Origin: Isoptericola variabilis 225
GTDB lineage: Bacteria > Actinomycetota > Actinomycetes > Actinomycetales > Cellulomonadaceae
Length of the DNA stretch: 64,000 nt
Reading direction: 5' to 3'
Assembly (NCBI RefSeq): GCF_000215105.1
Contig: NC_015588.1
Location: 1,240,001 to 1,304,000, forward strand
In this document: positions 2,119 through 63,230 of the stretch, piece by piece
How the letters are laid out: each line of letters opens with the position of its first letter
Position numbering within the stretch: the stretch's first letter is position 1
Translations under genes and position numbers: made by a program
Notes under the pieces: model-generated
The model's database searches: none
The model's input: only the letters and a program-made list of their open reading frames with translations
What the model was told of the DNA's origin: nothing

Positions 2119-5100
2119 GTCGACGCCCCGGTCTGCGCGGCCAGGCGGCGCTCGAACTCCGCGTAGGCCTGCCGCATGTGGGCCTCGCGGTCGAGGGTCT
2201 GGAACGGAAGCTCGTAGGTATAGGCGACACCACTGCCCGGGTGCACTGCGGTGAGCTCGTCCTCCGAGAATCTGCCGTTGTTGCCGCCCTTCTTGCGCCA
2301 GGTGGTCAGGACGCTGTTCGGAACCAGGCGGCCGTTCTCGTCGTAGTGGTCGCGGTTGCGGTCGTAGCCGTAAAGCACCGGGAACTGGGTGCGGTAGATA
2401 GTGCAGAGCTCGTCGGCGGTCAGGCCCAGGGACAACGCCACCAGGGCGTCGATCTCCAGCAGTGCCTGACGGCGGTCCTCAGCCCGACGCAGCGGTGTGT
2501 CCGGGGTCCACTCCGGGCCGACGTCACCGAGGTCGGCCCAGCCCGTGCGGTGTGGGAGGCCGGTCCACGAGTCGTCGCGAAAGGCCGGGTCGTAGCACTC
2601 GGCCCACAGGTCGGCATAACCTTCCGTGACGCAATTCAGGCGTAGGGTCCGGATGGCAAGCTGACGACGAGACCGGCTATCGGGCAGCGGGAGGCGGTTG
2701 AAGGTCGAGTAGATGATGTCGCTCTTCGGCGCGACGCGAACCATGAAATCGGCGATGAGCGAATGAGAACTGGCAGCCGCCAGCACGAGATCCGACTGCG
2801 GCCCGTCCGTCAGTGCGGCTGAGTAGACGAGGTGCATGTGGGCGGAGCCTGGCGGTACCAATGCGGGGATCAGAGTTCGCTCACCAGTGTTGGCAGCCAT
2901 GCGGCGCCAGGCGAGGCGGTAGAAGGCGCGGGCGGAGACTGTCTCGGTCCGGACGGTGGTTCCGTCGGCCCGGATGGCGGTTTCGACGTGGCGGACGTAC
3001 TTCGGGTCTACGGTAGGGGACCCGTCGACGGGCTCGCCGTCCCGGCCCATCACGACCTGCCGCGTCCAGTGCGTGTACGCAGCGTCGTACGCCTTGCGGT
3101 CGCCGCGCGGCTTGTACGACGTCGTAGGGATCGCCTTCGCGTCGAGCGTTTCGGCATCGACTGTCGACCAGTCGAGGTTGTTTGCCATGGTTGCATTGGG
3201 TGACTTATATGCAGGGTTTGCGACGTGGATGTGCGGACCCTGGATGATTACGTCATCCCAAGACTCTGGCTTTCCCCAGTCCTTCTCGAAGTGACCTTTC
3301 TTGAAGTCCGTGGTTTCGTTCCATCCTTGCGAGAACTGGGCGCGTAGACCTGCAATGCGGTGTGCACCAGATAGCTTACCTAGCACATCTGCGGTAGATC
3401 GGTTTACAGTGTAGATCATTCGACTTTCAATTGCGGGGGTGCTGCCGTCTTCAATGGTTCGCCACCAGGTGGCGAGAACGCCTTCGTCGACCTTGATTAT
3501 CCGGTCGCGATGTGGTCGCACTTCCCAGGCCCCGTCGAGGTCTTTGAGACCTGGCTCCGCGCCGCTGCCGTCGTGGGAGAGAGATCGATCGATGGTGTCT
3601 GGATGGAATATCCAAGCAGCCTGGAGGAAATTAGGCTCACCGGGGGAGCCGTAGACATGAACGCCCCATGGCTTCATGTCATGGTGGGTCTCGGCGAATA
3701 GTTTGAGTTCGTTCTTGAAGTACCAGTGACGCCGCAGTCGTGAGTATGTTGCGGCGCGAAGTTTACCCGCCTTTTCGTCGGTGAAGTGAGACTCCAAATG
3801 GATTAGGCCTGTTGTCCCTCGTATCGACTTGTGGCGCCACGTCTGCTCCATGAAGCAGCGGTATAGATCGGCACGGAGGCCGACGAGGTGTGGGTACTCG
3901 TTCGAACTGGACACGGCCTCGCGGGTGGCGATCGTCGCGGTCAATGAGTCGAGGTAGAAGTTCCGAGCGGCCGGAGTGGCAAGAATGGCGCTGCGCAACT
4001 CACTCGCGCGTGACGTCGCGAGTTTCCCTTCGAGCGCGAACGCCACCTCATGCTCACCGAGGGCAGCAGCCTCGTCGAAGTCGGGCCGGACCCACGGCGG
4101 GTTTCCGACCTGGAGGTCGAAGCCACCGCACGCGGCGAACACCGGCGCGAAGTCGAGCTCCCAGTGGAAGAAGCCCTGCTGTTCGGCGACCCGCTGGCAG
4201 ACGACCAGCCACGGGTGGTCGCGCAGCACTCGCTCGGGCGGCTGCACACCGGCGAACGAGAGTTCGAGCTCCTCCGCCTCGTTGAGCTCGTCCCAGTCGG
4301 CGGTGGTCGCAAAGGTCTGGTTCCCGCCGGTCCACTTCCTCCCACGACCGGATGCGCCGGTCTCGGCGTGGACGCCGAGCACCGCACGCAGGCCAGCGAT
4401 CCACTCGTCCAGGTCCGGCGGTTCGGTCAGAACCTCCTCGCCGTCGTCGCCCGTAACTCGGGTCACTGCGTCGGTGAGCGGCCAGAACCACAGCGCACAC
4501 CAGGCGTCCATCACCAGCCGCAGCCGCTGGTAGGCGCCTCGAGCGTCGGCGAGCGCGGCCTCGATCTGCTCGCGCGTGACGGCCCCGCCGACGGGCAGGT
4601 CGTCCGCACCCCAGACCTCGATGGACCGCCGGACCTGATCCTCGGCGATGCGGAGCCGCTGGTGTGCCAGGTCCCAGAGCGCCTCGACGCGGTGGGCGAG
4701 GTTGACGAGCTCGTCTGCCTGCTTCTTGGACGGCGTGACGAGCACCGCCTTGCGCCAGGCCTTGAGTCGGGCGAGTGCTTCAGGAGCGAGCTCCTTGGCC
4801 TCCTTCGCCTCGACCGCGCTGCCCCACCCTGCGGCGGGGAGCAGGAAGTGGTGGATGCGCCCGCCGACGTCGCCCAGTGAGCTCGAGCGTCCGGCGGCAC
4901 GGTCGGCGTCGGACGGCGCGAGCGGCACGTCGGCGGGGACGGCCGTGAGCCACGCCTTCTTGGCGAGCTGGTCGCGGCGATACACCGCTCGCCGTGCCCC
5001 GATGAGCGAGTTGCCGCGCTTCAGGTGCAGACCGAACCACGGTGCCTGGAGGCCCTTGCCCATCGTGTCGAGCCACAGGGAGATCTCGGCGAGCTCGACG

Positions 5101-16932: not shown

Positions 16933-16948
16933 GCCGCACGCCCCGACG

Positions 16949-16984
16949 AACCCGCCCGTGGTGGACGCCCACCACGGGCGGGTT
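16949..16984. terminator. Bidirectional hairpin between convergent genes
   Basis: A perfect 16-bp stem (16949-16964 with 16969-16984) and a 4-nt loop sit between the stop of the secreted protein and the 3' end of the minus-strand MmcQ gene. No U-tract follows, as is common in high-GC actinobacteria. Confidence 0.75.
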
Positions 16985-16992
16985 CCGTCTGC

Positions 16993-21938: not shown

Positions 21939-21954
21939 ATCTCGGTCGGTCAGT

Positions 21955-21994
21955 CGGAGCTCGGTCGGCACCTGGAGGTGCCGACCGAGCTCCG
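21955..21994. terminator. Long hairpin between lacI region and pectate lyase gene
   Basis: 19-nt arms (21955-21973 and 21976-21994) are perfectly complementary and extend imperfectly outwards to about 21940-22010 through repeated CGGTCGG blocks. The hairpin sits between genes pointing at each other, so it can end transcription from both sides. Confidence 0.75.
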
Positions 21995-22027
21995 AGCTGC
22001 CGACCGAAGCCGGCGTAGCGGCGAGCG

Positions 22028-37237: not shown

Positions 37238-38863
37238 ATGGGCACGACGGCGGGCCGCTGGGCGGCGCTCGCGGGCGTGGTCGCCGCGGGGACGGGTCTC
37301 GCGGTGGCCGAGCTCGTCGCGGCGTTCGTGGACCCGGCCGCGAGCCCGGTGCTCGCCGCGGGTGCCGCCGTCGTCGACGGGGTGCCCGGATGGCTCAAGG
37401 ACCTCGCGGTCGCGTGGTTCGGCACGGCCGACAAGGCCGTGCTCCTGGCCACGATGGGCGTGGTGCTCGCCGCGGGCGCGGCGCTCGCGGGCGTGCTCGA
37501 GCGGCGACGCCCGCCCGCGGGGGCGCTGCTGCTCGCCGCGGTCGGCGTGGTGGGCGGCGTCGTCGCGGCGGCCCGGCCCGGCGCGACCGCCGTGTGGGCG
37601 GTGCCGTCGCTCGTCGGCGTGGGCGCCGGCGTCGTGCTGCTCCGCGTGCTGGTCGCCCGCCTGCCCGCCCCCGCACGCGTCGTGTCAGAAACCCAGTGGG
37701 CCAGAACCCACCACTCTTCTGACACGGGCGTGGACGGTCCGCGGCTGTCAGAAACCCAGTGGGCCGGAGCCCACCACCCTTCTGACACGGGCGTGGACCG
37801 ACGGCGGTTCCTCGCCTGGAGCGGCGTGAGCGCGGCGGCGGCCCTGGTGGCGGTCGCGGCGTCGCGGGCGGTGAGCGCCGGGAGCCGGGCGGTCCAGGCG
37901 GTACGGGAGTCATTGCGCCTGCCGACGCCCGCGACCCCGGCGCCGCCCGTGCCGCCCGGGGCGGACCTCGGCGTCGAGCGCGCCGAGCCGTACATCACCC
38001 CCAACGAGACCTTCTACCGGATCGACACCGCGCTGCGGGTCCCCACCCCCGACCCCGCGGGGTGGTCGCTCACCGTGACCGGTCTGGTCGACGCGCCGTT
38101 CACGCTGACCTGGGACGAGCTGCTCGCCCTGCCGCTCGTCGAGCACCACGTGACGCTCACCTGCGTCTCCAACCCCGTGGGCGGCCCGCTCGTCGGGAAC
38201 GCGCTGTGGCTCGGCTACCCGGTGCGGGAGCTCCTCGTCCGCGCCCGCCCGCAACAAGGCGCCGACATGGTGCTCTCGCGCAGCGTCGACGGCTTCACCG
38301 CGGGCACGCCGCTCGACGTGCTGCTCGAGGAGTCGCGCACGTCGCTGCTCGCGATCGGCATGAACGGCGAGCCGCTGCCGCCCGAGCACGGCTTCCCCGC
38401 GCGCCTGGTGGTTCCGGGCCTGTACGGGTACGTGTCGGCGACCAAGTGGGTCACCGAGCTCAAGGTCACGCGGTTCGCCGACGACGAGGCGTACTGGACG
38501 CCCCGCGGCTGGTCCGAGCGGGGGCCGATCAAGCTGTCGAGCCGCATCGACATCCCGCGGCCCGGGGACGACCTGCCGGCCGGCGAGGTCGTCGTCGCGG
38601 GCGTCGCATGGGCGCAGCACACCGGGATCTCCGGCGTCGAGGTGCGGGTCGACGACGGCCCGTGGGTCACCGCCGAGCTCGCCGACACCGTGGGCCCCGA
38701 CACGTGGCGGCAGTGGCGGTTCGTGTGGGACGCGCCGCCCGGCGACCACCTCGTCGCGGTCCGGGCGACGGACGCGGACGGCGTCGTGCAGACCGGCGAG
38801 CAGACGCCCGTCGCACCCGACGGCGCGACCGGGTGGCACACCATCAGCCTCACGATCGTCTGA
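37238..38863 (+). CDS. Membrane-anchored sulfite-oxidase-family molybdopterin oxidoreductase
   Basis: 541 residues. The N-terminal 140 residues hold three or four membrane spans. A low-complexity linker (about 148-190) made by two tandem palindromic elements follows, then a further hydrophobic segment (FLAWSGVSAAAALVAVAA). The catalytic domain (about 250-445) has the sulfite-oxidase molybdopterin fold, with the pterin-binding region NETFYRID and the cysteine ligand in LTCVSNPVGG. A C-terminal Mo-co dimerisation domain (GEVVVAGVAWAQHTGISGVE) ends the protein. Such membrane-tethered enzymes are common in actinobacteria; the substrate is unknown. The linker does not appear conserved in nature and is explained by repeat insertion. 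Confidence 0.85.
   Translation: MGTTAGRWAALAGVVAAGTGLAVAELVAAFVDPAASPVLAAGAAVVDGVPGWLKDLAVAWFGTADKAVLLATMGVVLAAGAALAGVLERRRPPAGALLLAAVGVVGGVVAAARPGATAVWAVPSLVGVGAGVVLLRVLVARLPAPARVVSETQWARTHHSSDTGVDGPRLSETQWAGAHHPSDTGVDRRRFLAWSGVSAAAALVAVAASRAVSAGSRAVQAVRESLRLPTPATPAPPVPPGADLGVERAEPYITPNETFYRIDTALRVPTPDPAGWSLTVTGLVDAPFTLTWDELLALPLVEHHVTLTCVSNPVGGPLVGNALWLGYPVRELLVRARPQQGADMVLSRSVDGFTAGTPLDVLLEESRTSLLAIGMNGEPLPPEHGFPARLVVPGLYGYVSATKWVTELKVTRFADDEAYWTPRGWSERGPIKLSSRIDIPRPGDDLPAGEVVVAGVAWAQHTGISGVEVRVDDGPWVTAELADTVGPDTWRQWRFVWDAPPGDHLVAVRATDADGVVQTGEQTPVAPDGATGWHTISLTIV
37681..37726. repeat. 46-nt palindromic element, copy 1 (in coding sequence)
   Basis: The outer arms CGTGTCAGAA and TTCTGACACG and the inner arms GTGGG and CCCAC are present. 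It is read in frame as VSETQWARTHHSSDT in the linker of the sulfite-oxidase-like protein. It is exactly the same length as the copies at 37744, 52421 and 55868. Confidence 0.85.
37744..37789. repeat. 46-nt palindromic element, copy 2 (in coding sequence)
   Basis: The second copy is in tandem with copy 1, offset by 63 nt (21 codons). Both are followed by GGCGTGGAC, so copy 2 probably arose by duplication of copy 1 plus its flank. It reads LSETQWAGAHHPSDT. Its first two bases differ from the other copies. Confidence 0.85.
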
Positions 38864-38868
38864 CTCGC

Positions 38869-38874
38869 TAGGGT
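38869..38874 (+). promoter_or_regulatory. Leaderless -10 box for the SDR gene
   Basis: TAGGGT lies 6 nt before the ATG at 38881. There is no Shine-Dalgarno, and the upstream gene stops only 17 nt before, so transcription probably starts at the start codon. Confidence 0.5.
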
Positions 38875-38880
38875 GCGGCC

Positions 38881-39657
38881 ATGACCAGCACCGCACCGCA
38901 GACCCGTCGCGCGCTCGTCACGGGCGCGTCGTCCGGCATCGGGGCCGCCACGGTCCGCCGCCTGCGCGCCGAGGGGTGGGACGTCGTCGCCGCGGCCCGT
39001 CGGGCCGAGCGACTGGAGGCGCTCGCGGCCGAGACCGGCGCGGAGGCGTACCCGCTCGACGTGACCGACGACGCCGCGGTCGCGGCGCTCGCGGCCCACC
39101 TCGAGGCCACGGGCGGTCTCGACGCCGTGGTCAACAACGCCGGGGGAGCGTTCGGCCTCGACCGCGTCGAGGACGCCGACCTGCAGCAGTGGCGGGACAT
39201 GTACGAGCTCAACGTCCTCGGCACGCTGCGCGTGACCAAGGCCGTGCTGCCGCTGCTGCGGGCGTCGGCCGCGCGCACCGGCGGGAGCGACGTCGTCGTC
39301 GTGACGTCGACCGCCGCGCACGGCGCGTACGAGGGCGGCGCCGGCTACACCGCCGCCAAGCACGGCGAGCGCATGCTCTCGACCACGCTGCGCTGGGAGA
39401 TCGCCGGCGAGCCGATCCGGGTCATCGAGATCGCGCCCGGCGCGGTGGCCACGGAGGAGTTCTCGCTCGTGCGGTTCGACGGCGACGCCGAGCGGGCGGC
39501 CAAGGTCTACGAGGGCTACCAGCCGCTCGTCGCCGACGACGTCGCCGACACCATCGCCTGGACCCTGACCCGGCCGGCGCACGTCAACGTCGACCTCGTC
39601 GTCGTGCGGCCGCGCGCGCAGGCGCACAACGAGAAGATCGCGCGCACCGGCGTCTGA
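38881..39657 (+). CDS. Short-chain dehydrogenase/reductase
   Basis: 258 residues. The cofactor motif TGASSGIG near the N-terminus, VVNNAGG, and the catalytic YTAAK are all present. ARRAERLEALA after the second strand suggests NADP preference. The C-terminal part (GAVATEEFSLVRFDGD) is typical of the YdfG-like, serine/3-hydroxy-acid dehydrogenase subgroup. The substrate is unknown. It starts 17 nt after the sulfite-oxidase-like gene but with its own probable leaderless promoter. It ends at an inverted repeat before the ileS leader. Confidence 0.87.
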   Translation: MTSTAPQTRRALVTGASSGIGAATVRRLRAEGWDVVAAARRAERLEALAAETGAEAYPLDVTDDAAVAALAAHLEATGGLDAVVNNAGGAFGLDRVEDADLQQWRDMYELNVLGTLRVTKAVLPLLRASAARTGGSDVVVVTSTAAHGAYEGGAGYTAAKHGERMLSTTLRWEIAGEPIRVIEIAPGAVATEEFSLVRFDGDAERAAKVYEGYQPLVADDVADTIAWTLTRPAHVNVDLVVVRPRAQAHNEKIARTGV

Positions 39658-39663
39658 GGTCCG

Positions 39664-39722
39664 CGAGAGAGCGACCCGTCGCCGAAGAAGGGCTCTCGGG
39701 CCGGTGTCCCGTCGCTCTCTCG
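39664..39722. terminator. Inverted repeat after the SDR gene
   Basis: The 12-nt arms cgagagagcgac (39664-39675) and gtcgctctctcg (39711-39722) are perfectly complementary, with a GC-rich 35-nt loop that can fold further. Placed between the SDR stop and the ileS leader, it probably ends upstream transcription. Confidence 0.6.
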
Positions 39723-39774
39723 ACGACCGATCGCCATCTCGGCGCAGGTGGGGGAACGGAGTTGCGTGCCCGGC

Positions 39775-40010
39775 TACGATGGACGCACAGGCGTCGACCC
39801 GGCCATCACCGGTGAGCCTCCGGAAGAACGGCTCGCTCGCGAGCTCACTAGACCCGGACGGGTAGGCCCGTCACAGCCGTCAACGAGCGGCGGATCCCGG
39901 ACCCCGGGGCCCGCAAGCGGGGTGGTACCGCGGCCCTGCGCACGCCCAGCGTGCGCCGGCGTCGTCCTCGCACAGCAGTGCCGTCGTCGTACCACCTGTC
40001 CAGGAGCCCA
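39775..40010 (+). promoter_or_regulatory. Translational T-box riboswitch for isoleucine upstream of ileS
   Basis: The T-box core TGGTACCGCGG (39923-39933), complementary to the tRNA acceptor end region, is present. A short stem I region (about 39785-39820) carries ATC (39805-39807) in ggccatcaccgg, fitting an isoleucine specifier, and is followed by the conserved GGAAGAACGG-like stretch. A TACGAT -10 box lies at 39775-39780. No terminator or U-run follows the T-box, and the Shine-Dalgarno AGGAG (40002-40006) is close downstream. This fits the actinobacterial class with a very short stem I that controls translation by sequestering the ribosome-binding site. Confidence 0.85.
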
Positions 40011-40013
40011 CCC

Positions 40014-43000
40014 ATGGCCTATCCGCTGCACCGCTCGACCACCGACCCGAAGAGCCCGGGCGCCGCGTTCGGCATCGCCGGCGTGCCGGCCTCCCCGCAG
40101 CTGCCGCAGATCGAGCGCGACGTCCTGGCGTACTGGGAGCAGGACGACACGTTCCGCGCGTCGGTCGAGAAGAACCCCGCGGGCGAGGACGGCAGCAACG
40201 AGTTCGTCTTCTACGACGGCCCGCCCTTCGCGAACGGCCTGCCCCACTACGGTCACCTGCTCACGGGCTACGTCAAGGACGTCGTCCCGCGCTACCAGAC
40301 GATGCGCGGCCGGCGCGTCGAGCGCCGCTTCGGCTGGGACACGCACGGGCTGCCCGCCGAGCTCGAGGCGATGAGCCAGCTCGGCATCAAGACCAAGGAC
40401 GAGATCCTCGAGCTCGGCATCGAGAGGTTCAACGACGCCTGCCGCCGCTCGGTGCTCAAGTACACCTCGGAGTGGCGCGACTACGTCACCCGCCAGGCGC
40501 GCTGGGTCGACTTCGACAACGACTACCGGACGCTCAACCCGACCTTCATGGAGTCGGTCATCTGGGCGTTCAAGCGCCTCTACGACTCCGGGCTGGTCTA
40601 CGAGGACTTCCGCGTCCTGCCGTACTGCTGGAACGACCAGACGCCGCTGAGCAACCACGAGCTGCGCATGGACGACGACGTCTACCAGACGCGCCAGGAC
40701 CCGGCCGTCACCGTGGGCCTCGAGGTCACCTCGGTGCCCGACGCCGCGGCCGCGGCGGGCCTGCAGCCCGGAGACAAGCTGCTCGTGTGGACGACGACGC
40801 CGTGGACGCTGCCGTCCAACCTGCTCGTCATGATCGGCCCCGACATCGACTACGTCGTCGTCGAGTCGGCGCACACCGGCTCGCCGCTGCGCTACGTGCT
40901 CGCCGAGGCCCGCGTCGACGCGTACGCGCGCGAGCTCACCGACGACGGCGCGGACGCCCCGCGCGTCGTCGCGCGCCTGACCGGCCGCGACATGCTCGGC
41001 GCGACCTACACGCCGCCGTTCTCCTACTACGAGGGCCACGAGCGCGCGCACCGCGTGGTCGAGGCCGACTTCGTCACGACGACGGACGGCACCGGCCTGG
41101 TGCACAGCGCCGGCGCGTTCGGCGAGGACGACAAGATCGTGTGCGACCGCGAGGGCGTCGCGTCGGTCATGCCCGTGCGCGCCGACGGCACGTTCACGCA
41201 CCCGGTCGACGAGTACGCGGGGCTGCAGGTCTTCGACGCCAACCACCCGATCATCGACCACCTCAAGGCCCGCACCCGCGGCGAGGACCAGGCGGGCGCG
41301 ACGACGCCCGGCACGGTGCTGCTGCGCCGCGAGTCGTACGCGCACTCCTACCCGCACTGCTGGCGGTGCCGCCAGCCGCTGATGTACATGGGCGTGTCCT
41401 CGTGGTTCGTCGAGGTCACCAAGATCAAGGAGCGCATGCTCGAGCTGAACGAGCAGATCTCCTGGACGCCCGCCCACATCAAGCACGGCCAGTTCGGCAA
41501 GTGGCTCGAGAACGCGCGCGACTGGTCGATCACGCGCAACCGGTTCTGGGGCTCGCCGGTGCCCGTGTGGAAGAGCGACGACCCGGCGTACCCGCGCGTC
41601 GACGTCTACGGGTCCTTCGAGGAGCTCGAGCGCGACTTCGGCACCCTGCCGCGCAACGCCGCCGGGGAGCCGGACCTGCACCGGCCCTACGTCGACGAGC
41701 TCACGCGGCCCAACCCCGACGACCCGACGGGGAGGTCCACGATGCGCCGGGTCGAGGACGTGCTCGACGTCTGGTTCGACTCCGGCTCGATGCCCTACGC
41801 GCAGGTGCACCACCCGTTCGAGAACGCGGAGTGGTTCGAGCACCACTTCCCGGGCGACTTCATCGTCGAGTACATCGGCCAGACGCGCGGGTGGTTCTAC
41901 ACGCTCCACGTCCTGGCCACGGCCCTGTTCGACCGCCCGGCGTTCCGCACGGCGCTCTCGCACGGCATCGTGCTCGGCTCCGACGGGCGCAAGATGAGCA
42001 AGTCGCTGCGCAACTACCCGGACGTCAACGAGGTCTTCGACCGCGACGGCTCCGACGCGATGCGCTGGTTCCTCATGGCCTCGCCGATCCTGCGCGGCGG
42101 CAACCTCGTCGTCACCGAGGAGGGCATCCGCGACGCGGTGCGCCAGGTGCTGCTGCCGCTGTGGAGCACGTACTACTTCTTCACCCTGTACGCGAACTCC
42201 GCCGGTGACGGGTCGGGCTACGAGGCGAAGCCCGTGGTCGCCGAGCGCGTCGCGAGCCTGCCCGCGCTCGACCGGTACCTGCTCGCGCGCACGCACGACC
42301 TCGTCGCGCGCGTGACCGACCAGCTCGACGCCTACGACATCGCCGGCGCGTGCGAGTCGGTGCGCGACCACCTCGACGTCCTGACCAACTGGTACGTGCG
42401 CACCCAGCGCGACCGGTTCTGGGCCGAGGACCCCGACGCGTTCGACACGCTGTGGACCGCGCTCGAGGCGCTGTCCCGCGTCATGGCTCCGCTCGCGCCG
42501 CTGCTCACCGAGGAGGTCTGGCGCGGCCTGACCGGCGGCCGGTCCGTGCACCTCGCCGACTGGCCGGTGTCCGACGGCGCGGTCGAGCCCGCGCTCGTGG
42601 CCGACGACGCGCTCGTCGCGGCCATGGACGAGGTGCGCGCCGTCGTCTCGACGACGCTCGCGCTGCGCAAGGCCAACGCGCTGCGCGTGCGCCAGCCGCT
42701 CGCGCGGCTCACCGTGGCGGTCGACGACCCGGAGGCGCTCGCGGACTACGTCCCGCTGCTGGCGAGCGAGCTCAACGTCAAGCAGGTCGACGTGCTGCAC
42801 GCCGACGCCGCGGCCGCCGAGCGGTTCGGCATCACCGAGCGGCTCGCGGTCAACGCCCGCGCCGCCGGCCCCCGCCTGGGGCGCGGCGTGCAGGCGGTCA
42901 TCAAGGCCGCCAAGGGCGGCGCCTGGCACCGGGACGCCGACGGCGCGGTCGTCGTGGCGACCGACGACGGCGAGGTGCCGCTGCTCGAGACCGAGTACGA

Positions 43001-43382
43001 GCTGACGACCGTGGTCGCTCAGGGTGCCGGCGGGGCGGACGGCGCCGGCGACGAGGTCGCCGCGAGCGTGCTGCCGGGCGGCGGGTTCGTCGTCCTCGAC
43101 CTCGCGCTCGACGACGCGCTGCGCGCCGAGGGCTACGCCCGCGACGTCGTGCGCGACGTCCAGGACGCGCGCAAGGCCGCGGGCCTCGAGGTCTCCGACC
43201 GGATCGACCTCGAGCTCGACGTGCCCGCCGCGCACGTCGCCGACGTCGAGGCGCACCGCGAGCTGGTGATGCGCGAGACGCTCGCCGTGTCGCTGGCCGT
43301 GGCCGGCGTCGACGGGGCCTCGCGCGCGGTGCGCGTGCGCAAGGCCGAGAACGTCGCCGTCGAGCAGGGGGAGGGTGCGTGA
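40014..43382 (+). CDS. ileS: Isoleucyl-tRNA synthetase, type 2
   Basis: 1,122 residues from the ATG at 40014, 7 nt after AGGAG. The HIGH motif appears as LPHYGH near residue 77 and KMSKS as GRKMSKS near residue 659. The editing (CP1) domain lies between them ([14 protein letters not shown]). The length, the [15 protein letters not shown] block and the C-terminal extension mark it as the eukaryote-like type 2 enzyme, which is known to be mupirocin-tolerant in characterised cases. It charges tRNA-Ile in the cytoplasm and is controlled by the T-box just upstream. Its stop overlaps folC by 4 nt. Confidence 0.96.
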
Positions 43383-44779
43383 GCGCCGCGAAGAAGGGCT
43401 CGGGCAAGGCCGCGCGCGAGGCGGCCGAGGACGCCGTCGCGCGCGAGCAGCTCAAGGAGGTCTACGCGCACATCATGTCGCGTGCCCCCGAGCACGACAT
43501 CGACCCGACGCTCGCGCGCGTCCAGCGCGTCCTCGAGCTGCTCGGCGACCCGCAGCACGCGTTCCGCTCGATCCACCTCACGGGCACGAACGGCAAGTCG
43601 TCGACCGCGCGCATGACCGAGCGCCTCGTGCGCGAGCACGGGCTGCGCACGGGCCTGTTCACGTCGCCGCACCTGACGAGCGTGACCGAGCGGATCCAGG
43701 TCGACGGCGAGCCGCTGAGCGCGGCGCGCTTCGTCGAGGTGTGGGAGGACGTCGCGCCCTACGTCGGCGTCGCGGACCGCGAGTCGGCCGAGGCCGGCGG
43801 CCCGCCGCTGAGCTTCTTCGAGGTGCTCACGGTCATGGCGATCGCGGCGTTCGCGGACGCGCCCGTCGACGTCGCGGTGATCGAGGTCGGCATGGGCGGC
43901 CGGTGGGACTCCACGAACGTCGTCGACGGCGAGGTCGCGATCCTCACCCCGGTCGGCATCGACCACGAGCGCTGGCTCGGCTCGACGCTCGAGGAGATCG
44001 CCACGGAGAAGTCGGGCATCGTCAAGGAGCGCGCGACCGTGGTCAGCGCGCTGCAGGCGCCCGAGGTCGACGAGATCCTGCGCGCCCGGGCGTCCGACGT
44101 CTCCGCGCGGCTGCTGCGCGAGGGCGTCGAGCTCGAGGTCGCGGGCCGTCAGCTCGCCGTCGGCGGCCAGCTCGTGAACCTGCGCACGCCCGCCGGCCTC
44201 TACACCGACGTCCCGGTGCCGCTGCACGGCGAGCACCAGGCGCACAACGCGCTGCTCGCCCTCGCCGCGGTCGAGCAGCTGCTCGGCGGACGGACCCTCG
44301 ACGGGGCCGTCGTCGAGGCCGCGTTCGCCGACGTCACCGCGCCCGGGCGGCTCGAGCTCGTGCGGTCGAGCCCGACCGTGCTCGTCGACGCCGCGCACAA
44401 CCCGCACGGCGCCGAGGCGCTCGTCGCGGCGCTCGAGGAGGCGTTCGGCTTCCGCACGCTCGTGGGCGTCGTGGCCGTCATGGCCGACAAGGACGCCGAG
44501 GGGCTGCTCGCCACGCTCGAGCCGACGCTCGCGTCCGTCGTCGTGACCCGGAACTCGTCGCCGCGCTCGGCGGACCCGCACGACCTCGCCGAGGTCGCGC
44601 GCGAGGTGTTCGGCGAGGACCGCGTGCAGGTGACGGAGCGCCTCGACGAGGCGATCCAGGTCGCGACCGACCTCGCCGAGCGCGACGACGCCGTCGGCGT
44701 CGGCACCGGCACGGGCGTGCTGGTCACCGGCTCGGTCATCACCGTCGCCGACGCGCGGATCCTCCTGGGCCGTGGCTGA
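43379..44779 (+). CDS. folC: Bifunctional folylpolyglutamate/dihydrofolate synthase
   Basis: 466 residues from a GTG at 43379 overlapping the ileS stop (GTGA). A lysine-rich N-terminal extension (about 1-25) precedes the Mur-ligase core: P-loop [14 protein letters not shown], the [15 protein letters not shown] loop, [26 protein letters not shown], and the C-terminal domain with [12 protein letters not shown]. It adds glutamates to folates (and forms dihydrofolate). The partner DUF4233 gene, which follows folC directly in many actinobacteria, is displaced here by about 5 kb of dha and TetR/MFS genes. Confidence 0.95.
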
Positions 44780-44907
44780 GGCCCCGGGCGTCCCGTCGTG
44801 AGCGGCGTCCCGTGCGCTCCTCGCCGCGCGGGTGTTTGATGGTCCGCAGGGCGTGCGGGTCGCGCCGGGGCGGCCCGGCGCCTCGTGACGAGGAGGGACG
44901 TGCTGCG

Positions 44908-45903
<996 letters not shown>

Positions 45904-45955
45904 CACCCGCGGGCCGGTGACCGGCCCGAGGCCGTCGGGAGAGGGAAGGGGCGCG

Positions 45956-46606
45956 ATGACGCTCGACGTGGCATGGTCCGAACGCTGGGTGCGACGGTCG
46001 GCGGAGGCGCTCGCCGCCGCCCGGGACGAGCTCACGGAGCTCGACCGGCAGATCGGCGACGGCGACCACGGGGAGAACATGCACCGCGGGTTCCGCGCCG
46101 TGGTGGCCAAGCTCGACGACGGCGCGGAGCGCACGCAGGTGGGCCAGGTGCTCAAGGTCGTCGCCACGACGCTCATGTCGTCGGTCGGCGGCGCGTCCGG
46201 CCCGCTGTACGGGACGGCGTTCCTGCGCGCGGGCAAGGTCACCGAGCGCGACGCGCTCGACGCGCACGGCGTCGTCGTCATGCTCGAGGCCGCGCTCGAG
46301 GGCATCACGACGCGCGGCAAGGCGACCACGGGCGAGAAGACCATGGTCGACGCGTGGCAGCCCGCGGTCGACGCCGCGACGCGCGCCGCGCAGGACGGCG
46401 CCGACCCGGTCGCGGTGCTCCGGGCCGCGGCCGAGGCGGCCGACGCCGGGGCGACCTCGACGATCCCGCTCGTGGCGACCAAGGGTCGCGCGTCGTACCT
46501 CGGCCCCCGCTCGGCGGGGCACGAGGACCCGGGCGCCCGCTCGACCGCGCTGCTGCTCGGTGCCGCGCTCGCCGCCGCGCTCACGGACGAGGTGCCTGCG
46601 GCGTGA
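45956..46606 (+). CDS. dhaL: Dihydroxyacetone kinase subunit DhaL
   Basis: 216 residues from the ATG at 45956 (GAAGGGG upstream). The Mg-ADP binding aspartates are in RQIGDGDHGENM, followed by SVGGASGPLYGT and the late TSTIPLVATKGRASYLG with the lid loop GPRSAGHEDPGA. It holds ADP/ATP that is rephosphorylated by DhaM and passes phosphate to dihydroxyacetone on DhaK. The frame upstream of 45956 lacks a better start. Confidence 0.95.
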   Translation: MTLDVAWSERWVRRSAEALAAARDELTELDRQIGDGDHGENMHRGFRAVVAKLDDGAERTQVGQVLKVVATTLMSSVGGASGPLYGTAFLRAGKVTERDALDAHGVVVMLEAALEGITTRGKATTGEKTMVDAWQPAVDAATRAAQDGADPVAVLRAAAEAADAGATSTIPLVATKGRASYLGPRSAGHEDPGARSTALLLGAALAAALTDEVPAA

Positions 46607-47373
46607 CCGTCGGCCTCGTCCTCGTCTCGCACTCGGTCCTGCTCGCCGAGGGCACGGCCGAGCTGGCGCGCGAGATGGCGCCCGACGTCGTCGTGCGCGT
46701 CGGCGCGGGCGACGCCGAGGGCGGCCTCGGCACGTCGCTCGAGCGGGTGCAGGCCGCGCTCGAGGACGTCCTCGCGCAGGCCGACGCCGCGATCGTGCTG
46801 GCGGACCTCGGGTCGGCGGTGCTCACCGTCGAGACCGCGTTCGAGGTCGACGAGTCGCTCGCGGGGCGGGCCCGCCTGGTCTCGGCCCCGTTCGTCGAGG
46901 GCGCGGTGGCCGCGGCCGTGACCGCGCAGCAGGGCGCGGGTGCCGACGCCGTCGCCGCCGCGGCCGAGGGTGCGGTGACGTCGATCGGCCAGCCCGGGCC
47001 GGTGCTCGAGCTCGTCGAGACCCGGGACACCGGGGGAGCGGCCGGCACCGTCCTCGCGGGCGAGGCTGTCGGCGTCGTCGAGGCGCCCGGCGCCGAGGCG
47101 CCCGGCGCCCAGGACGGCGTGGTGACCGCGCGCGTGACCGTGCCGAACCCGCTCGGGCTGCACGCCCGGCCGGCCGCGGTGCTCGCGCGCACGGTCGCGG
47201 ACCTGGGCGTCCCGATGACGGTCGACGGCGTCGACGCGACGAGCGTCCTGCAGTTGCTCGCGCTCGGCGCCACGGGGGGCCGGGAGCTCGAGATCGCGGC
47301 GCGCGGGGAGCGCGCCGAGGCGGCCGTGGCCGTCGTCGTCGGCCTCATCGAGGGCGGCTTCGGCGAGGTGTGA
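46603..47373 (+). CDS. dhaM: DhaM phosphotransferase (EIIA-mannose-type domain fused to HPr)
   Basis: 256 residues from a GTG at 46603 overlapping dhaL (GTGA). The N-terminal EIIA-man-like domain (1-130) has its phospho-histidine in VLVSHSVLLAEG. An alanine- and glycine-rich linker leads to an HPr domain (about 168-256) with its active histidine in NPLGLHARPAAVLA. There is no EI-like third domain, unlike E. coli DhaM. It relays phosphate from PEP via EI to DhaL. The fused HPr may let the chain work with general EI alone. Confidence 0.94.
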   Translation: MTVGLVLVSHSVLLAEGTAELAREMAPDVVVRVGAGDAEGGLGTSLERVQAALEDVLAQADAAIVLADLGSAVLTVETAFEVDESLAGRARLVSAPFVEGAVAAAVTAQQGAGADAVAAAAEGAVTSIGQPGPVLELVETRDTGGAAGTVLAGEAVGVVEAPGAEAPGAQDGVVTARVTVPNPLGLHARPAAVLARTVADLGVPMTVDGVDATSVLQLLALGATGGRELEIAARGERAEAAVAVVVGLIEGGFGEV

Positions 47374-47395
47374 CGCGGCTCACCGGAAACTACAG

Positions 47396-47424
47396 TTGGT
47401 GAAAAAATGCAGCCGCTGCAGAAT
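47396..47424 (+). promoter_or_regulatory. Promoter and operator of the TetR/MFS pair
   Basis: TTGGTG (47396-47401) and CAGAAT (47419-47424) are 17 nt apart; the -10 ends 6 nt before the GTG at 47431, so the tetR message is probably leaderless. The spacer holds an inverted repeat TGCAG-ccg-CTGCA (47408-47420), a good candidate operator for autorepression. Confidence 0.55.
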
Positions 47425-47430
47425 TGAGCG

Positions 47431-50146
<2,716 letters not shown>

Positions 50147-50162
50147 GCCCTCGGCCCGCCGG

Positions 50163-50168
50163 TAGGGT
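50163..50168 (+). promoter_or_regulatory. Leaderless -10 box for ndk
   Basis: TAGGGT ends 7 nt before the ATG at 50176, and no Shine-Dalgarno is present between the preceding stop (50146) and ndk. Confidence 0.5.
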
Positions 50169-50175
50169 TCTGGCT

Positions 50176-50643
50176 ATGACCGACGTCGCGCAGAACACCG
50201 TGCCCGCCGAGCCCACCACCCCCGCCGCCGAGCGCACGCTCGTCCTCGTCAAGCCCGACGGCGTCCGCCGGGGCCTGTCCGGCGAGGTGCTGCGCCGCAT
50301 CGAGGCCAAGGGCTACACGCTCGCGGCCGTCGAGCTCAAGAGCGCGACGCCCGAGCTCCTCGCGGAGCACTACGCCGAGCACGCCGGCAAGCCGTTCTAC
50401 GGCCCGCTCGTCGAGTTCATGCTCTCGGGCCCGATCCTCGCCGTCGTGGCCGAGGGCCAGGGCGTGATCGCCGGCTTCCGCTCGCTCGCCGGGGCCACCA
50501 ACCCGACCGAGGCCGCCCCCGGCACGATCCGCGGCGACCTGGCCCGCGACTGGGGCCTGAAGGTCCAGCAGAACCTCGTGCACGGCTCCGACTCGGTCGA
50601 GTCGGCCGAGCGCGAGATCGCCCTCTGGTTCCCGCACCTCTGA
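50176..50643 (+). CDS. ndk: Nucleoside diphosphate kinase
   Basis: 155 residues, slightly longer than usual because of a 17-residue N-terminal extension ([18 protein letters not shown]). The core [20 protein letters not shown] and the phospho-histidine loop [20 protein letters not shown] are intact. It equilibrates nucleoside di- and triphosphates. A TAGGGT box 7 nt before the ATG suggests leaderless transcription. Confidence 0.96.
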
Positions 50644-50692
50644 CGGCGGCGCGGGAACGGCGGATCTCCGCGGTTTCCGGCCGCCGCGCGGT

Positions 50693-50698
50693 TAGGCT
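50693..50698 (+). promoter_or_regulatory. Leaderless -10 box for smc
   Basis: TAGGCT ends 6 nt before the GTG at 50705. There is no Shine-Dalgarno, supporting this GTG as both transcription and translation start. Confidence 0.5.
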
Positions 50699-50704
50699 CA
50701 CCAG

Positions 50705-53700
50705 GTGCACCTCAAGACGCTCACGCTCCGGGGCTTCAAGTCGTTCGCCTCGGCGACGACGCTGAGCTTCGAGCCGGGCATCACGTGCGTCGTCGGGCCC
50801 AACGGCTCGGGCAAGTCGAACGTGGTCGACGCCCTGGCGTGGGTCATGGGCGAGCAGGGCGCCAAGTCGCTGCGCGGCGGCAAGATGGAGGACGTCATCT
50901 TCGCCGGCACGTCGGGCCGCCCGCCGCTCGGCCGCGCCGAGGTGTCGCTGACGATCGACAACACCGACGGCGCCCTGCCGATCGAGTACACCGAGGTCAC
51001 CATCTCCCGCACGCTGTTCCGCAGCGGCGGGTCGGAGTACGCGATCAACGGCAGCTCGTGCCGGCTGCTCGACATCCAGGAGCTCCTGAGCGACTCGGGC
51101 ATCGGGCGCGAGATGCACGTCGTCGTCGGGCAGGGACAGCTGGACGCCGTGCTGCGCGCGACGCCCGAGGAGCGCCGCGGCTTCGTCGAGGAGGCCGCCG
51201 GCGTCCTCAAGCACCGCAAGCGCAAGGAGAAGGCGCTGCGCAAGCTCGAGGCGATGGCGGGCAACCTCGCGCGGCTCACGGACCTCACCACGGAGCTGCG
51301 CCGCCAGCTCGGCCCGCTCGGGCGGCAGGCCGAGGCCGCGCGCAAGGCCCGCACCGTGCAGGCCGAGCTGCGCGACGCGCGGTCGCGCCTGCTCGCGGAC
51401 GACCTCGCCCAGCTGCAGGCCCAGCTCGAGCAGGAGCGCGCGGACGAGCGCGCCCTCCGCCGGCAGCAGGCCGCGACCGAGCAGGCCCTCGGCAAGGCGC
51501 GCGAGCGCCTGGCGCGCCTCGAGGTCGCCGCCGCCGGCACGACGGCCGAGGCCGGCCGCGCCGCCAACACCTTCCACGCGCTTACCGCGCTGCGCGAGCG
51601 GCTGCGCGGGCTGCGCACGCTGGCCGACAAGCGCGTGCGCCTGCTCGGGTCGGCCGAGCCCGAGCACCGGGGCCAGGACCCGGCCGAGCTCAAGGCCCAG
51701 GCCGAGCGGGCGCGGGCGTCGGAGGCCAAGCTGACCCCCGAGGTCAAGCTCGCGCGCGCGGCGCTCGAGGACCCCGTCGCCCCGCGCACCGCCGCGAAGG
51801 AGGCCGCCGCGGCGGCCCAAAAAGGAGCTCCGCCACCTGCTGCGCGGCGCGGCGGACCGGCGCGAGGGCCTGGCCCGGCTCGCGGGGCAGGTCGCGGCGC
51901 GCCGCAGCCGGGTCGAGGCGGCGGACGCCGAGCTCGAGCGCGTCCGCGCTGCCCTCGAGGAGGCCGAGAAGCGGGCGGACGAGGCCACGCGCGAGTTCGC
52001 CGCTCTCGAGACCCAGGTCGTGGGCGCCGAGGAGGGCGAGGAAGGGCTCGACGCCGAGCACGAGGCGGCGACGCGCGAGCTCGAGGAGGCGCGCGCCGCC
52101 GTCGCCGCGCTCGAGGAGGCGGCCGCCGCGGCCGACAAGGACCGCGCGACGTGGAGCGCGCGCGTCGAGGCGCTCGAGCTCAGCCTCGACCGCAAGGACG
52201 GCGCCGGGGCGCTGCTCGCGGGCGACGTGCCGGGCGTGCTCGGCTCGGTCGCCGCGCTGCTCGGCGTCGAGCCGGGGTTCGAGGACGCGGTCGCCGCCGC
52301 GCTCGGCCCGCTCGCCGACGCCGTGGCGGTCGAGAGCCTCGACGCCGCGGTCGACGCGCTGCGGTCGCTGCGCGACGACGACGCCGGCCGCGCGGGCCTC
52401 GTCGTCGGCTCGCCCTCGCCCGTGTCAGAAGCCGGGTGGGACGGAGCCCACCAGCGTTCTGACACGGTGCCCGACGGCGCCCGGCGCGCCACCGACGTCG
52501 TGACCGTCTCGGGACCGGCCGCCGGGGCGCTGCGTGCCGTGCTCGCCGACGTCGTCGTGGTCGACGACCTCGCCGAGGCCCGCGCGCTCGTCGCGGCGCA
52601 CCCCGAGGTCGTCGCCGTCACACGGGCGGGAGACCTGCTCGGCGCGACGCGCGCGTGGGGCGGCTCGGCCGCCGCGCCCAGCGTCCTGCACCTCACGTCG
52701 GCGCTCGAGGAGGCCCGCGCCGGGCTCGAGGAGGCCGTGGCCCGCGGCGAGCGCTGCCGCTTCGAGCTGGGCGGCGCGCGCGACCGCCTGGGCCGCGCCC
52801 AGGAGCGCCACGACGAGACGCTCGAGCGCCTGCACGAGTCCGACGCCGCGCTGGCCGCGGTCGCGGAGCAGCTCGGCACGCTCGGCGCGGCGCAGCGTGC
52901 GGCACGGGCCGAGGCGGACCGCCACCGCGCGACGCTCGAGCAGGCGCTCGCGCGCCGCGCGGCCGACGAGGCCGAGCTCGCCGAGCTGGCCCGCCGCCTC
53001 GAGGTCGCCGAGGCGGAGCCCGCGCAGTCCGACGAGGCGATCGCCGAGGCGCAGGCCGCGCGCGACGCGCGGCAGGCCGAGGCGACCGCGGCACGCACCG
53101 CCGAGACGGAGGCCCGTCTCGCGCTGCGCACTTCCGAGGAGCGGGCGCGCGCCGTCGCCGGACGTGCGGCGGGGCTCGCCCGCGCCGCGGCCCAGGAGCG
53201 GCAGGCGCGCGAGCGGGCCGCCGCCCGCGCCCGGGCGCGCGCCGCCCAGGCCGAGCGGGCCGCCGCCGTGCGCACCGACGCGACGACCGCGCTCGCCGCC
53301 CTCGACCGGTCGATCGAGCGGGCGCGGGACGAGCGCGCCGCGGCCGACGAGGCGCGCGCCGCGCGCCAGGCCGAGCTCGACGCGGTGCGGGCCGACGTCG
53401 AGCGGCTGACGGCCGAGCTGCGCGACCTGACGGACGTCGCGCACCGCGACGAGGTCGCGCGCGCCCAGCAGCAGCTGCGCCTCGAGCAGCTCCAGGCCCG
53501 CGCGGTCGAGGAGCTCGGGACGGACCCCGACGCGCTCGTCGAGGAGTACGGCCCGCACCGCCCCGTGCCGGTGCCCCGCCCGGAGGACGCCGCTCCCGAC
53601 GAGCCCGACCCGGAGCCGGTGCCCTACGTGCGCGAGGAGCAGGAGCGGCGGGCGCAGGCCGCCGAGCGCGCGCTCAGGCGCATCGGCACGGTCAACCCGC

Positions 53701-54293
53701 TCGCGCTCGAGGAGTTCGCCGCGCTCGAGGAGCGGCACCAGTTCCTCACGACGCAGCTCGCGGACCTCAAGAAGTCGCGCGAGGACCTCCTGCACATCGT
53801 CGAGGAGATCGACGAGCGCGTGCAGCAGGTGTTCGCCGAGGCGTTCCGCGACACCGCCGCCCAGTTCGAGCGCGTGTTCCCGCGCCTGTTCCCGGGCGGC
53901 GAGGGCCGGCTCGTGCTCACCGACCCGTCCGACCTGCTGACGACGGGCATCGAGGTCGAGGCGCGCCCCGCGGGCAAGAAGGTCAAGCGGCTCTCGCTGC
54001 TCTCGGGCGGCGAGCGCTCGCTCACGGCCGTGGCGTTCCTGGTGTCGATCTTCAAGGCCCGCCCGAGCCCGTTCTACGTCATGGACGAGGTCGAGGCCGC
54101 TCTCGACGACGTGAACCTGGGACGCCTGCTGGAGATCTTCCGCGAGCTCCAGGAGGACTCCCAGCTCATCGTCATCACCCACCAGAAGCGCACCATGGAG
54201 ATCGCCGACGCGCTGTACGGCGTGACGATGCGGGGCGACGGTGTGACGACCGTCATCTCGCAGAGGCTGCGCGAAACCGCCGACGCATTGTGA
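50705..54293 (+). CDS. smc: Chromosome segregation protein SMC, with a +1 frameshift as given
   Basis: The N-terminal ATPase half is read from the GTG at 50705: [15 protein letters not shown] and Walker [15 protein letters not shown]. Coiled coil follows. At the run AAAAA (51819-51823) the frame moves: removing one A restores CAA AAG GAG (QKE) and the chain continues to 54293. The corrected length is 1,195 residues, normal for SMC. The hinge lies at about 52200-52690. The C-terminal half has the ABC signature [13 protein letters not shown] and Walker [14 protein letters not shown] 46-nt palindromic element is inserted in frame in the hinge at 52421. The frameshift may be a sequencing error, a real mutation or a slippage site; smc is usually important for growth. 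Confidence 0.9.
52421..52466. repeat. 46-nt palindromic element, copy 3 (in the SMC hinge)
   Basis: The arms CGTGTCAGAA and TTCTGACACG are perfect. The inner arms are GTGGG and CCCAC. It is read in frame as [15 protein letters not shown] between the hinge stretches GLVVGSPSP and [12 protein letters not shown], in the same translation frame as the copies in the sulfite-oxidase-like gene. Confidence 0.85.
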
Positions 54294-54303
54294 GAATGTC
54301 CCC

Positions 54304-54654
54304 GTGATCACCTACGTCCTCTGGGTCGCGCTCAGCATCCTGCTCGCCCTCGCCGTCTTCCTCGTGGCGAGCGTGATGGAGCGCCGCGACGCCCGCTCGG
54401 AGGACGCGCCCGGCGGGCTCGTGCAGTTCTGGCGCGACTTCCGCTCCGGCCTGCGCCGGGGCGACCGGCGCCGCACCCCCAAGCCCGTCGACACCGACAT
54501 GGACGCGTTCTTCGCCGCGACGGTCGAGTCCGCGCCGGGGTACGTCGACGCCGAGGAGCTCACCGACGTGCTGCAGCGCGCCCGCGAGCAGGCGCGCCAC
54601 ACGCTGCACGTGGGCCACGTCGAGGTGAGCCGCCCGGCCCGCAGGAGCGCCTGA
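54304..54654 (+). CDS. Small single-span membrane protein between smc and ftsY
   Basis: 116 residues from a GTG at 54304. An N-terminal membrane segment (VLWVALSILLALAVFLVASV) is followed by a basic stretch (RSGLRRGDRRRTPKP) and a helical C-terminal part. I do not recognise a family. A GAGAAT -10-like box (54292-54297) ends 6 nt before the GTG, so it may have its own leaderless promoter even though it starts 10 nt after smc. The position suggests a link to chromosome segregation or membrane targeting, which is only inference. Confidence 0.7.
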   Translation: MITYVLWVALSILLALAVFLVASVMERRDARSEDAPGGLVQFWRDFRSGLRRGDRRRTPKPVDTDMDAFFAATVESAPGYVDAEELTDVLQRAREQARHTLHVGHVEVSRPARRSA

Positions 54655-54684
54655 CGTCACAGTGCGTCTGGGAGACTGGGGCGC

Positions 54685-55857
54685 GTGACTGATCAGCTCT
54701 GGCTCTGGCTCACGCTCGGCATCCTGGTCCTCGCCGGTGGCGGCGCGGCCCTGCTCGCACCCCTGCGCCGTCGTCGCGGCGCCCCGCCCGTCGACGAGAC
54801 GGGCGACCGTTCCGCGGGCGGCACGACGACGGACGAGCGGCCCGGGGGCACGGCCGTCCTCGAGCCCGAGGCGCCGTCGCCCGCCGAGGCCGCGGCACCG
54901 CCGGCCGTCGAGAGGCCGGCGCCCGCCGCGGGCCGCCTGGTCCGCCTGCGCGACCGCCTCGCGCGCTCGGGCTCCCCGCTGGGCGCCCGCCTGCTCACCG
55001 TGCTGTCGCGCGACCACCTCACCGAGGACGACTGGGACGAGATCGAGGAGACGCTCCTGCTCGCCGACATCGGCGCCGGCCCGGCCGGGGAGCTGCTCGA
55101 GGCGCTGCGCACGCGCGTGCGCGTCCAGGGCGCGCGCGACGGCGCGTCGGTCCGCGCCCTGCTGCGCGAGGAGCTGATCAAGGTCGTCGACCCCAGCCTG
55201 GACCGCTCGGTCGCGACGTCCCGCCCGGTGTCCGACGACGGGACGCCCGTCCCCGCCGTCGTGCTCGTCGTCGGCGTCAACGGCACGGGCAAGACGACGA
55301 CCGTCGGCAAGCTCGCGCGCGTGCTCGTCGCCGAGGGGCGGACCGTGGTGCTCGGCGCGGCCGACACGTTCCGCGCGGCCGCGGCCGACCAGCTGCAGAC
55401 CTGGGGCTCGCGCGTCGGCGTCGAGACGGTGCGCGCGGACCGCGACGGCGCCGACCCGGCGTCGGTGGCGTTCGACGCGGTGCGCAAGGGCACGGCCGAC
55501 GGCGCCGACGTCGTGCTCGTCGACACCGCCGGGCGCCTGCAGAACAAGGCCGACCTCATGGACGAGCTGGGCAAGATCACGCGCGTGATCACGCGCGAGG
55601 CGCCCCTCAGCGAGGTCCTCCTCGTGCTCGACGCCACCACGGGCCAGAACGGCCTCAACCAGGCGCGCGTGTTCGGCGAGGTCGCCGGCGTCACGGGCAT
55701 CGTGCTGACCAAGCTCGACGGCACCGCCAAGGGCGGCATCGTCGTGGCCGTGCAGCGCGAGCTCGGCGTGCCCGTCAAGCTCGTCGGTCTCGGCGAGGGT
55801 CCCGACGACCTGGCGCCGTTCGACCCGGAGGAGTTCGTCGACGGCATCCTCGGCTGA
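54685..55857 (+). CDS. ftsY: Signal recognition particle receptor FtsY
   Basis: 390 residues from a GTG at 54685. An N-terminal hydrophobic segment (LWLWLTLGILVLAGGGAALL) and an acidic, proline-rich linker replace the long A domain of E. coli FtsY and probably anchor it in the membrane. The NG domain follows: the P-loop in GVNGTGKTTTVGKLA, ADTFRAAAADQL, DTAGRLQNKADLM and TKLDGTAKGG. It pairs with Ffh (59555-61174) in co-translational targeting. A GAGACT box 7 nt before the start fits leaderless expression. It ends at the strong 46-nt hairpin. Confidence 0.95.
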   Translation: MTDQLWLWLTLGILVLAGGGAALLAPLRRRRGAPPVDETGDRSAGGTTTDERPGGTAVLEPEAPSPAEAAAPPAVERPAPAAGRLVRLRDRLARSGSPLGARLLTVLSRDHLTEDDWDEIEETLLLADIGAGPAGELLEALRTRVRVQGARDGASVRALLREELIKVVDPSLDRSVATSRPVSDDGTPVPAVVLVVGVNGTGKTTTVGKLARVLVAEGRTVVLGAADTFRAAAADQLQTWGSRVGVETVRADRDGADPASVAFDAVRKGTADGADVVLVDTAGRLQNKADLMDELGKITRVITREAPLSEVLLVLDATTGQNGLNQARVFGEVAGVTGIVLTKLDGTAKGGIVVAVQRELGVPVKLVGLGEGPDDLAPFDPEEFVDGILG

Positions 55858-55867
55858 CGTCGAGTCC

Positions 55868-55913
55868 CGTGTCAGACGTCTGGTGGGCCAGAGCCCACCA
55901 GACGTCTGACACG
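55868..55913. repeat. 46-nt palindromic element, copy 4 (after ftsY)
   Basis: This is the most symmetrical copy: the 20-nt arm CGTGTCAGACGTCTGGTGGG (55868-55887) is almost perfectly complementary to 55893-55913. It lies 11 nt after the ftsY stop and probably works as its terminator. It is the only one of the four copies outside coding sequence. Confidence 0.85.
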
Positions 55914-56075: not shown

Positions 56076-57685
<1,610 letters not shown>

Positions 57686-63125: not shown

Positions 63126-63153
63126 GCGGTCGAGCACCCGAGCGACACCCCCC

Positions 63154-63190
63154 GACGAGGCCCGGTCCCACCACGGGACCGGGCCTCGTC
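63154..63190. terminator. Strong hairpin between khpA and rimM
   Basis: A perfect 16-bp stem (63154-63169 with 63175-63190) and 5-nt loop stand alone in the 105-nt gap. There is no U-tract. It probably terminates or attenuates transcription between the rpsP-khpA and rimM-trmD parts of the cluster, or blocks 3' decay. Confidence 0.7.
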
Positions 63191-63230
63191 GTGCCGGAGG
63201 GTGCACCCTGGTGACGGCGAAGGAGGAGAC

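Follow-up and report, generated by a model that had tools for sequence, protein, structure and literature searches.

A dispersed 42-nt palindrome with TGTCAG ends within genes and at gene ends of Isoptericola variabilis 225 and other Actinomycetes

The genome of Isoptericola variabilis 225 (3,307,740 bp in one contig, here G000), with a gene judged dnaA-like by eye that begins near base 190, was analysed from a stretch of 64,000 nt (bases 1240001-1304000, the window). This stretch carries four copies of one palindrome, three of them translated as parts of proteins and one lying beyond the end of a gene. The locus thus raises the question of what kind of repeat can occupy both settings, and of how its copies arise.

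The repeat unit and its copies in one genome

The four copies were confirmed in the window sequence at the places given in a preliminary description of this DNA (Table 1), against a mean of 0.00 matches in 100 shuffled sequences. The unit had been given there as 46 nt; the strictly shared core is shorter, a 42-nt palindrome TGTCAGA-N28-TCTGACA, and the larger figure adds 2 nt on each side, which read CG...CG in three of the four copies, the second copy having GC on its left. Three copies in two protein genes, all in the same frame, and a fourth that is intergenic and terminator-like were found as described. An identical 11 nt follows both copies in the oxidoreductase gene, which suggests a tandem duplication at that place. 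An Rfam scan of the window gave no match at the gathering threshold. Separately, the smc reading frame changes near 51.8 kb.

Table 1 Copies of the 42-nt palindrome in the window, their host genes and neighbouring genes (window coordinates).
Feature	Position	Strand	Remarks
Element copy 1	37683..37724		in frame in the YedY-like oxidoreductase gene
Element copy 2	37746..37787		forms a pair with copy 1, starting 63 nt after it; also in frame in the oxidoreductase gene
Element copy 3	52423..52464		in frame in a variable loop of the smc hinge
Element copy 4	55870..55911		intergenic, 12 nt 3' of the ftsY stop; terminator-like hairpin
Molybdopterin-dependent (YedY-like) oxidoreductase gene	37238..38863	+	host gene; PF00174
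smc	50705..54293	+	host gene; SMC_N, hinge PF06470
ftsY-like GTPase gene	54685..55857	+	directly upstream of copy 4; SRP54 domains
Ammonium transporter-like gene	56076..57350	+	downstream of copy 4; recognised by eye

The preliminary description would have been refuted by a lack of further copies, and the whole-genome search removed this objection: TGTCAGA-N28-TCTGACA occurs 52 times in G000 and the reversed control pattern not at all. All 52 copies are exactly 42 nt long, although lengths of 42-48 were allowed. A sister type of 42 nt with TGTCAGG/CCTGACA ends was recognised in a scan of about 445 kb for degenerate copies, and the wider pattern TGTCAG-N30-CTGACA has 98 matches, the 52 and 46 further ones. 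Copies also occur in close pairs (<150 nt), 39 of 44 such pairs having a period of 60-63 nt among the matches listed and the loci read in several genomes; no pair with this period was present among the 66 copies listed for genome G105, which has 199 in total. The 19-21 nt between paired copies were not conserved in the pairs compared, the 11 nt of the window pair being the exception.

Copies of the TGTCAGA type are absent from a 659-kb stretch of G000 whose centre lies opposite the dnaA end (P = 0.0025 for the size of the gap and 0.00003 for its centring within 1%, both post hoc). In G073, a genome of another genus, none was found in the first 520 kb among 60 listed of 88 copies, which reach 2.97 of 4.45 Mb; the position of its origin was not placed. 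The gap in G000 would suit binding sites for a chromosome-organising protein, excluded from the terminus. Noc and SlmA are proteins of this kind. This explanation appears very improbable, because the repeat is patchy within one genus, the wider pattern being present in 7 of the 15 other genomes, because copies occur within genes, and because the arms pair where their bases vary (see below).

Copies within protein genes

Sixteen of the 52 copies were assigned by frame composition to 13 protein genes, the gene calls coming from a GC3 script and being uncurated; coding status depends on the choice of start codon. Two copies each are carried by the YedY-like oxidoreductase, an E2 acyltransferase and a phytoene-dehydrogenase-like protein, and one each by smc, an MrfA-like helicase, an XPB-like helicase-associated protein, a dynamin-like GTPase, a sacsin-like ATPase, a heavy-metal P-type ATPase, a uracil-5-methyltransferase-like protein, nuoG and hemD (both at the C-terminus) and a NasC-like reductase (at the N-terminus). 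All 16 are read in frame A (GTG TCA GAA ... TCT GAC ACG), giving a peptide of the type VSExxWAxAHxxSDT; four other copies (L026, L032, L036 and L039) would be read in frame B, near 5' ends, if stop-to-stop frames were used, and start-trimmed calls place these upstream of genes. Frame B is open in all 52 copies and frame C is closed in all 52, while frame A contains a stop in two copies on one strand and in nine on the other. If frames A and B were equally acceptable, the chance of finding all 13 genes in frame A would be about 1 in 8000. The Promicromonospora copy L240:9097 is again read in frame A, within an open frame of 846 residues.

The peptide is missing from most homologues of its host proteins. 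Its presence in distant homologues would have spoken against a dispersed element; among 120 listed oxidoreductase homologues no match to the motif was found, and it was not seen in the smc loop wherever this could be extracted, in 19 of 29 relatives fetched. In some more remote homologues of the XPB-like and phytoene-dehydrogenase-like proteins, peptides that resemble the element's by eye do occupy the corresponding position; the copies there may thus be old and often decayed, or these linkers may be hotspots.

Insertion into genes, as first proposed, may hold for part of the set. In the MrfA-like helicase a net insertion of 12 residues interrupts a conserved stretch when compared with PDB 6znp, and the GSD at its right end is common to both. 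The oxidoreductase linker is 47 residues long, its counterparts in the two closest homologues having 26 and 21, and a 21-residue duplication would explain much of this excess. Against a general rule of insertion, the smc and XPB-like genes are nearly or exactly as long as those of element-free relatives: the smc loop has 66 nt and those of four near relatives 57-63 nt, and the XPB-like genes of G000 and G151 are equal in length and unlike in sequence. As judged from these alignments, both copies look more like the in-register exchange of a variable linker than like plain insertion.

Hairpins at gene ends

Outside genes the copies are concentrated at gene ends. Among 50 copies examined, 24 of the 37 called non-coding lie no more than 22 nt 3' of a stop codon, one of these 24 being the NasC-like copy that is counted as coding elsewhere, whereas only 8.1% of random intergenic points do so. 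The mean RNA folding energy was -31.4 kcal/mol for the 36 non-coding and -24.3 kcal/mol for the 16 coding copies. A stable hairpin directly after the end of a gene is one feature of intrinsic terminators. The other, a run of U, is missing from the CG-rich right flank, in which position +1 is C in 42 and position +2 is G in 39 of 50 copies.

Pairing between the arms was compared with that of shuffled halves, a comparison that overstates significance as related copies are not independent. Over all 21 positions of all 52 copies there was no excess (17.02 paired against 16.98 ± 0.16). At positions 8-15 the 36 non-coding copies had 6.33 of 8 positions paired against 5.67 ± 0.15, and the 16 coding copies had 4.31 against 4.90 ± 0.22, i.e. 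less than the shuffled halves; codon choice, for example the avoidance of a second Trp, may account for this lower value. In G105 positions 9-11 vary and still pair, in 2.67 of 3 positions against 1.66 ± 0.12 for 45 distinct sequences of the 66 copies listed, and in 2.65 of 3 against 1.66 ± 0.15 for 26 distinct copies taken from individual loci. That bases free to vary should still pair suggests that what is kept or copied is the folded strand.

Ordinary terminator hairpins could also be kept alike by template switching during replication, in which case no mobilising enzyme would be called for. According to the available part of PMC8794818, RNA hairpins can arise and be preserved through template switching as DNA is replicated. 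The placement of copies just after stop codons is in line with this, as is the metG-sufE gap (gene names by eye), which in other Promicromonospora species holds unrelated palindromes or nothing. Terminators alone fail, on the other hand, to explain a hexamer and a length of 42 nt common to many genera, or 16 intragenic copies in one frame, and this account is considered unlikely.

The order of an outer box, a covarying 3-bp spacer, an inner box and a loop, together with the position right after stops, recalls folded recombination sites such as integron attC. Such a function is hardly credible here: those genes between copies that were inspected look by eye like ordinary core genes, and the attC core consensus differs from the TGTCAG outer boxes. 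For the former reason the gene between the copies at 393680 and 394783 was also dropped as a candidate mobiliser.

Spread of the repeat and its place among known systems

The TGTCAGA pattern was found in 43 of 150 genomes of the family, at up to 199 per genome, and TGTCAG-N30-CTGACA in 59 of the 150, at up to 200 in one, with the reversed control matching in 1 of 150 for each; some of these matches are single hits and may be due to chance. The length is fixed, 493 of 495 matches to an elastic pattern in six high-copy genomes being exactly 42 nt, with G096 deviating at 43 nt. The seventh base is A, G or C depending on the genome, its partner usually being changed to match, and the interior sequence is likewise genome-specific; the outer hexamers and the length are common to many genera. 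At the level of the class, 51 of 394 genomes match; single hits among them are no better than the control, which gave one or two matches in 10 genomes, but 16 genomes in seven other families carry 5 to 32 matches, their sequences having been inspected for two of these families. Of 38 genomes from other families of the same order, two had a match and none had more than one, which makes the wide distribution very uneven. It may go back to ancient spread followed by loss, to transfer from one lineage to another, or to convergence. With one consensus as query, a plasmid collection gave a single partial match (50% covered, E 0.7) and a phage collection none.

Comparison of orthologous sites disclosed places with and without the element. 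At one Promicromonospora site G105 is 89 nt longer than G133, and the site is empty in all seven other species extracted (of 12). The copy L240:9097 is present in G105 and G111, and G133, G077 and G031 are without it and 54, 57 and 60 nt shorter; it is also missing in G087. At the 3' end of ftsY the element is missing in L099, the closest relative found, and G073 has a copy with an interior of its own; no TGTCAGA copy was seen at the ftsY loci of 80 genomes, a set from which records near the source genome may be missing. These sites show gain or loss of the element.

Gain, loss and constant TGTCAG/CTGACA ends around genome-specific interiors would also be expected of short MITEs, i.e. two 21-bp IS terminal repeats joined head to head and mobilised by a DDE transposase whose gene lies elsewhere. 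TGT...ACA ends are known in several IS families. This origin is regarded as improbable. Flanking direct repeats were not in excess at the 52 copies (2.71 against 2.60 ± 0.13), and thus gave no sign of the target duplication that the preliminary description had suggested looking for; old copies could have lost such a duplication since. Three varying positions pair across the arms, and terminal repeats acting as duplex would not need such pairing. In 247 crude gene calls beside copies no transposase-like gene recurred; the largest similarity cluster there has four members, ABC-type ATPases by eye, and was rejected as a mobiliser. Nor was the RAYT-type enzyme found that the preliminary description had named as one to look for: a mobiliser search with the Y1_Tnp profile alone (PF01797) had no match in G000 and one in the 150 family genomes, in G075, which has no elements.

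Taken together, the 42-nt TGTCAG-N30-CTGACA is, on balance, probably a hairpin-forming repeat that became dispersed by spreading within genomes, its folded strand being copied by an enzyme or through template switching, with selection of copies as terminators. Under this mechanism the folded strand, as a DNA hairpin or cruciform, would be recognised and copied by a trans-acting enzyme or by replication template switching. Copies landing between genes would be retained because they terminate transcription or form hairpins at 3' ends. Within genes, survival would be limited to linkers in which about 14 residues can be added or exchanged, and to the frame giving a mild hydrophilic peptide, and such copies would then lose hairpin strength. 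A more far-reaching proposal is offered tentatively, at rather less than even confidence. It sees a selfish actinobacterial hairpin, patchily class-wide, that is suited to genes in having 14 codons and a used frame that is stop-free on either strand in most copies and gives the same kind of mild peptide either way; the folded strand would be copied by a putative new enzyme, and the hairpin would act as a terminator between genes and be defused inside them.

In-frame, gene-invading palindromes have mostly been regarded as a peculiarity of Rickettsia. The present case adds GC-rich actinobacteria in which a genome may hold up to 200 copies, related species that have or lack copies, and 16 copies assigned to 13 genes of one genome. 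With these it becomes testable what moves such elements, why a single frame is used and whether selection acts against hairpins in mRNA. The element would further provide short terminators and, in proteins such as SMC and MrfA, naturally occurring sites at which an insertion is tolerated.

Literature searches found no published description of this 42-nt element. The earlier statement that no equivalent was known in the lineage stands for the literature searched; in the genomes, elements of similar kind are present beyond the genus and in several further families of the class.

GTAG-REPs and REPINs, as covered by the available part of PMC3733652, are likewise palindromes near ORF ends that occur in dimers. 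The present repeat differs in having TGTCAG/CTGACA ends with CG-rich flanks and no GTAG tag, and in the lack of a Y1 transposase in the element-bearing genomes among the 150 drawn. REPINs are near 100 nt in length. MITEs such as RUP and ERIC share inverted ends, the lack of a gene of their own and the ability to fuse in frame with genes, in the portion of PMC10969869 available; they measure 70-300 bp by the corresponding part of PMC3733652, against 42 nt here, where no target duplication was found, nor, with the Y1 profile and in crude calls of neighbouring genes, a cognate transposase. CGTC-tagged REPs, among which RPE-4 and RPE-6 are included, are short palindromes that form dimers, are in some cases intragenic and have no associated transposase. 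In the same extract of PMC3733652 they are tagged at one end with CGTC (or TGTC, CCTC), have stems of 8-9 bp, loops of 4-5 and a CCA-like tail, and are assigned to five phyla that do not include Actinobacteria; the present repeat, in contrast, has TGTCAG at both ends, 42 nt and arms of up to about 19-21 bp.

The likeness to Rickettsia palindromic elements (RPEs) suggested at the outset holds in behaviour, both being palindromic, dispersed and in many cases in frame in unrelated protein genes, to the extent that the available parts of PMC10969869, PMC3767692 and PMC3733652 describe RPEs. It ends at size and lineage, RPEs being about 100-150 bp and found in Rickettsia in the available part of PMC3767692, whereas the repeat described here has 42 nt, TGTCAG ends and a home in the Actinomycetes, and is by this description set apart. 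The best reading is therefore that of a dispersed hairpin-forming repeat which behaves like RPEs, yet departs from RPEs, GTAG-REPs and CGTC-REPs in some or all of the features that were compared.

Palindromes and smc in the window

Twenty palindromes were found in the window, against 2-8 in three block shuffles, and three long ones that lack TGTCAG ends are possibly terminators (table). The gene smc, host of one copy of the 42-nt element, is split in two open frames, and the change of reading frame near 51.8 kb may be a sequencing error or a real frameshift.

Palindrome types in the I. variabilis genome

A 659-kb stretch centred opposite the dnaA end is devoid of any A-type element (TGTCAGA...TCTGACA ends), the probability of an A-type gap as large as this in the genome being 0.0025 in a post hoc estimate. 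The genome also carries a second 42-nt palindrome type with TGTCAGG...CCTGACA ends, around which CGAGT/ACTCG flanks are frequent; the 445 kb examined contained 12 copies, including two pairs at 61 nt.

Repeats in Promicromonospora

In G105, an element-rich genome, TGTCAGA occurs in direct-order repeats with a 19-nt period adjoining an element, which can thus be part of a larger iterated structure. The metG-sufE gap of L180, L181 and L182 holds a family of palindromes of ~60 nt unrelated to the TGTCAG element, whose outer arm is directly repeated in the flanks with a ~20-nt period. Another dispersed inverted repeat, of ~70 nt, flanks a tract of short repeats.

Coordinates of the features described
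Feature	Source	Position
Long palindromes without TGTCAG ends	window	16948-16985, 21954-21995, 63151-63193
smc, two open frames	window	50705-54293
A-type gap	I. variabilis genome	1326012-1985328
TGTCAGG...CCTGACA type, example copies	I. variabilis genome	L041:449, L041:510, L043:6617, L043:6678
Direct TGTCAGA repeats	G105	L059:2549-2655
~70-nt inverted repeats	Promicromonospora	L240:3315-3401, 3630-3700
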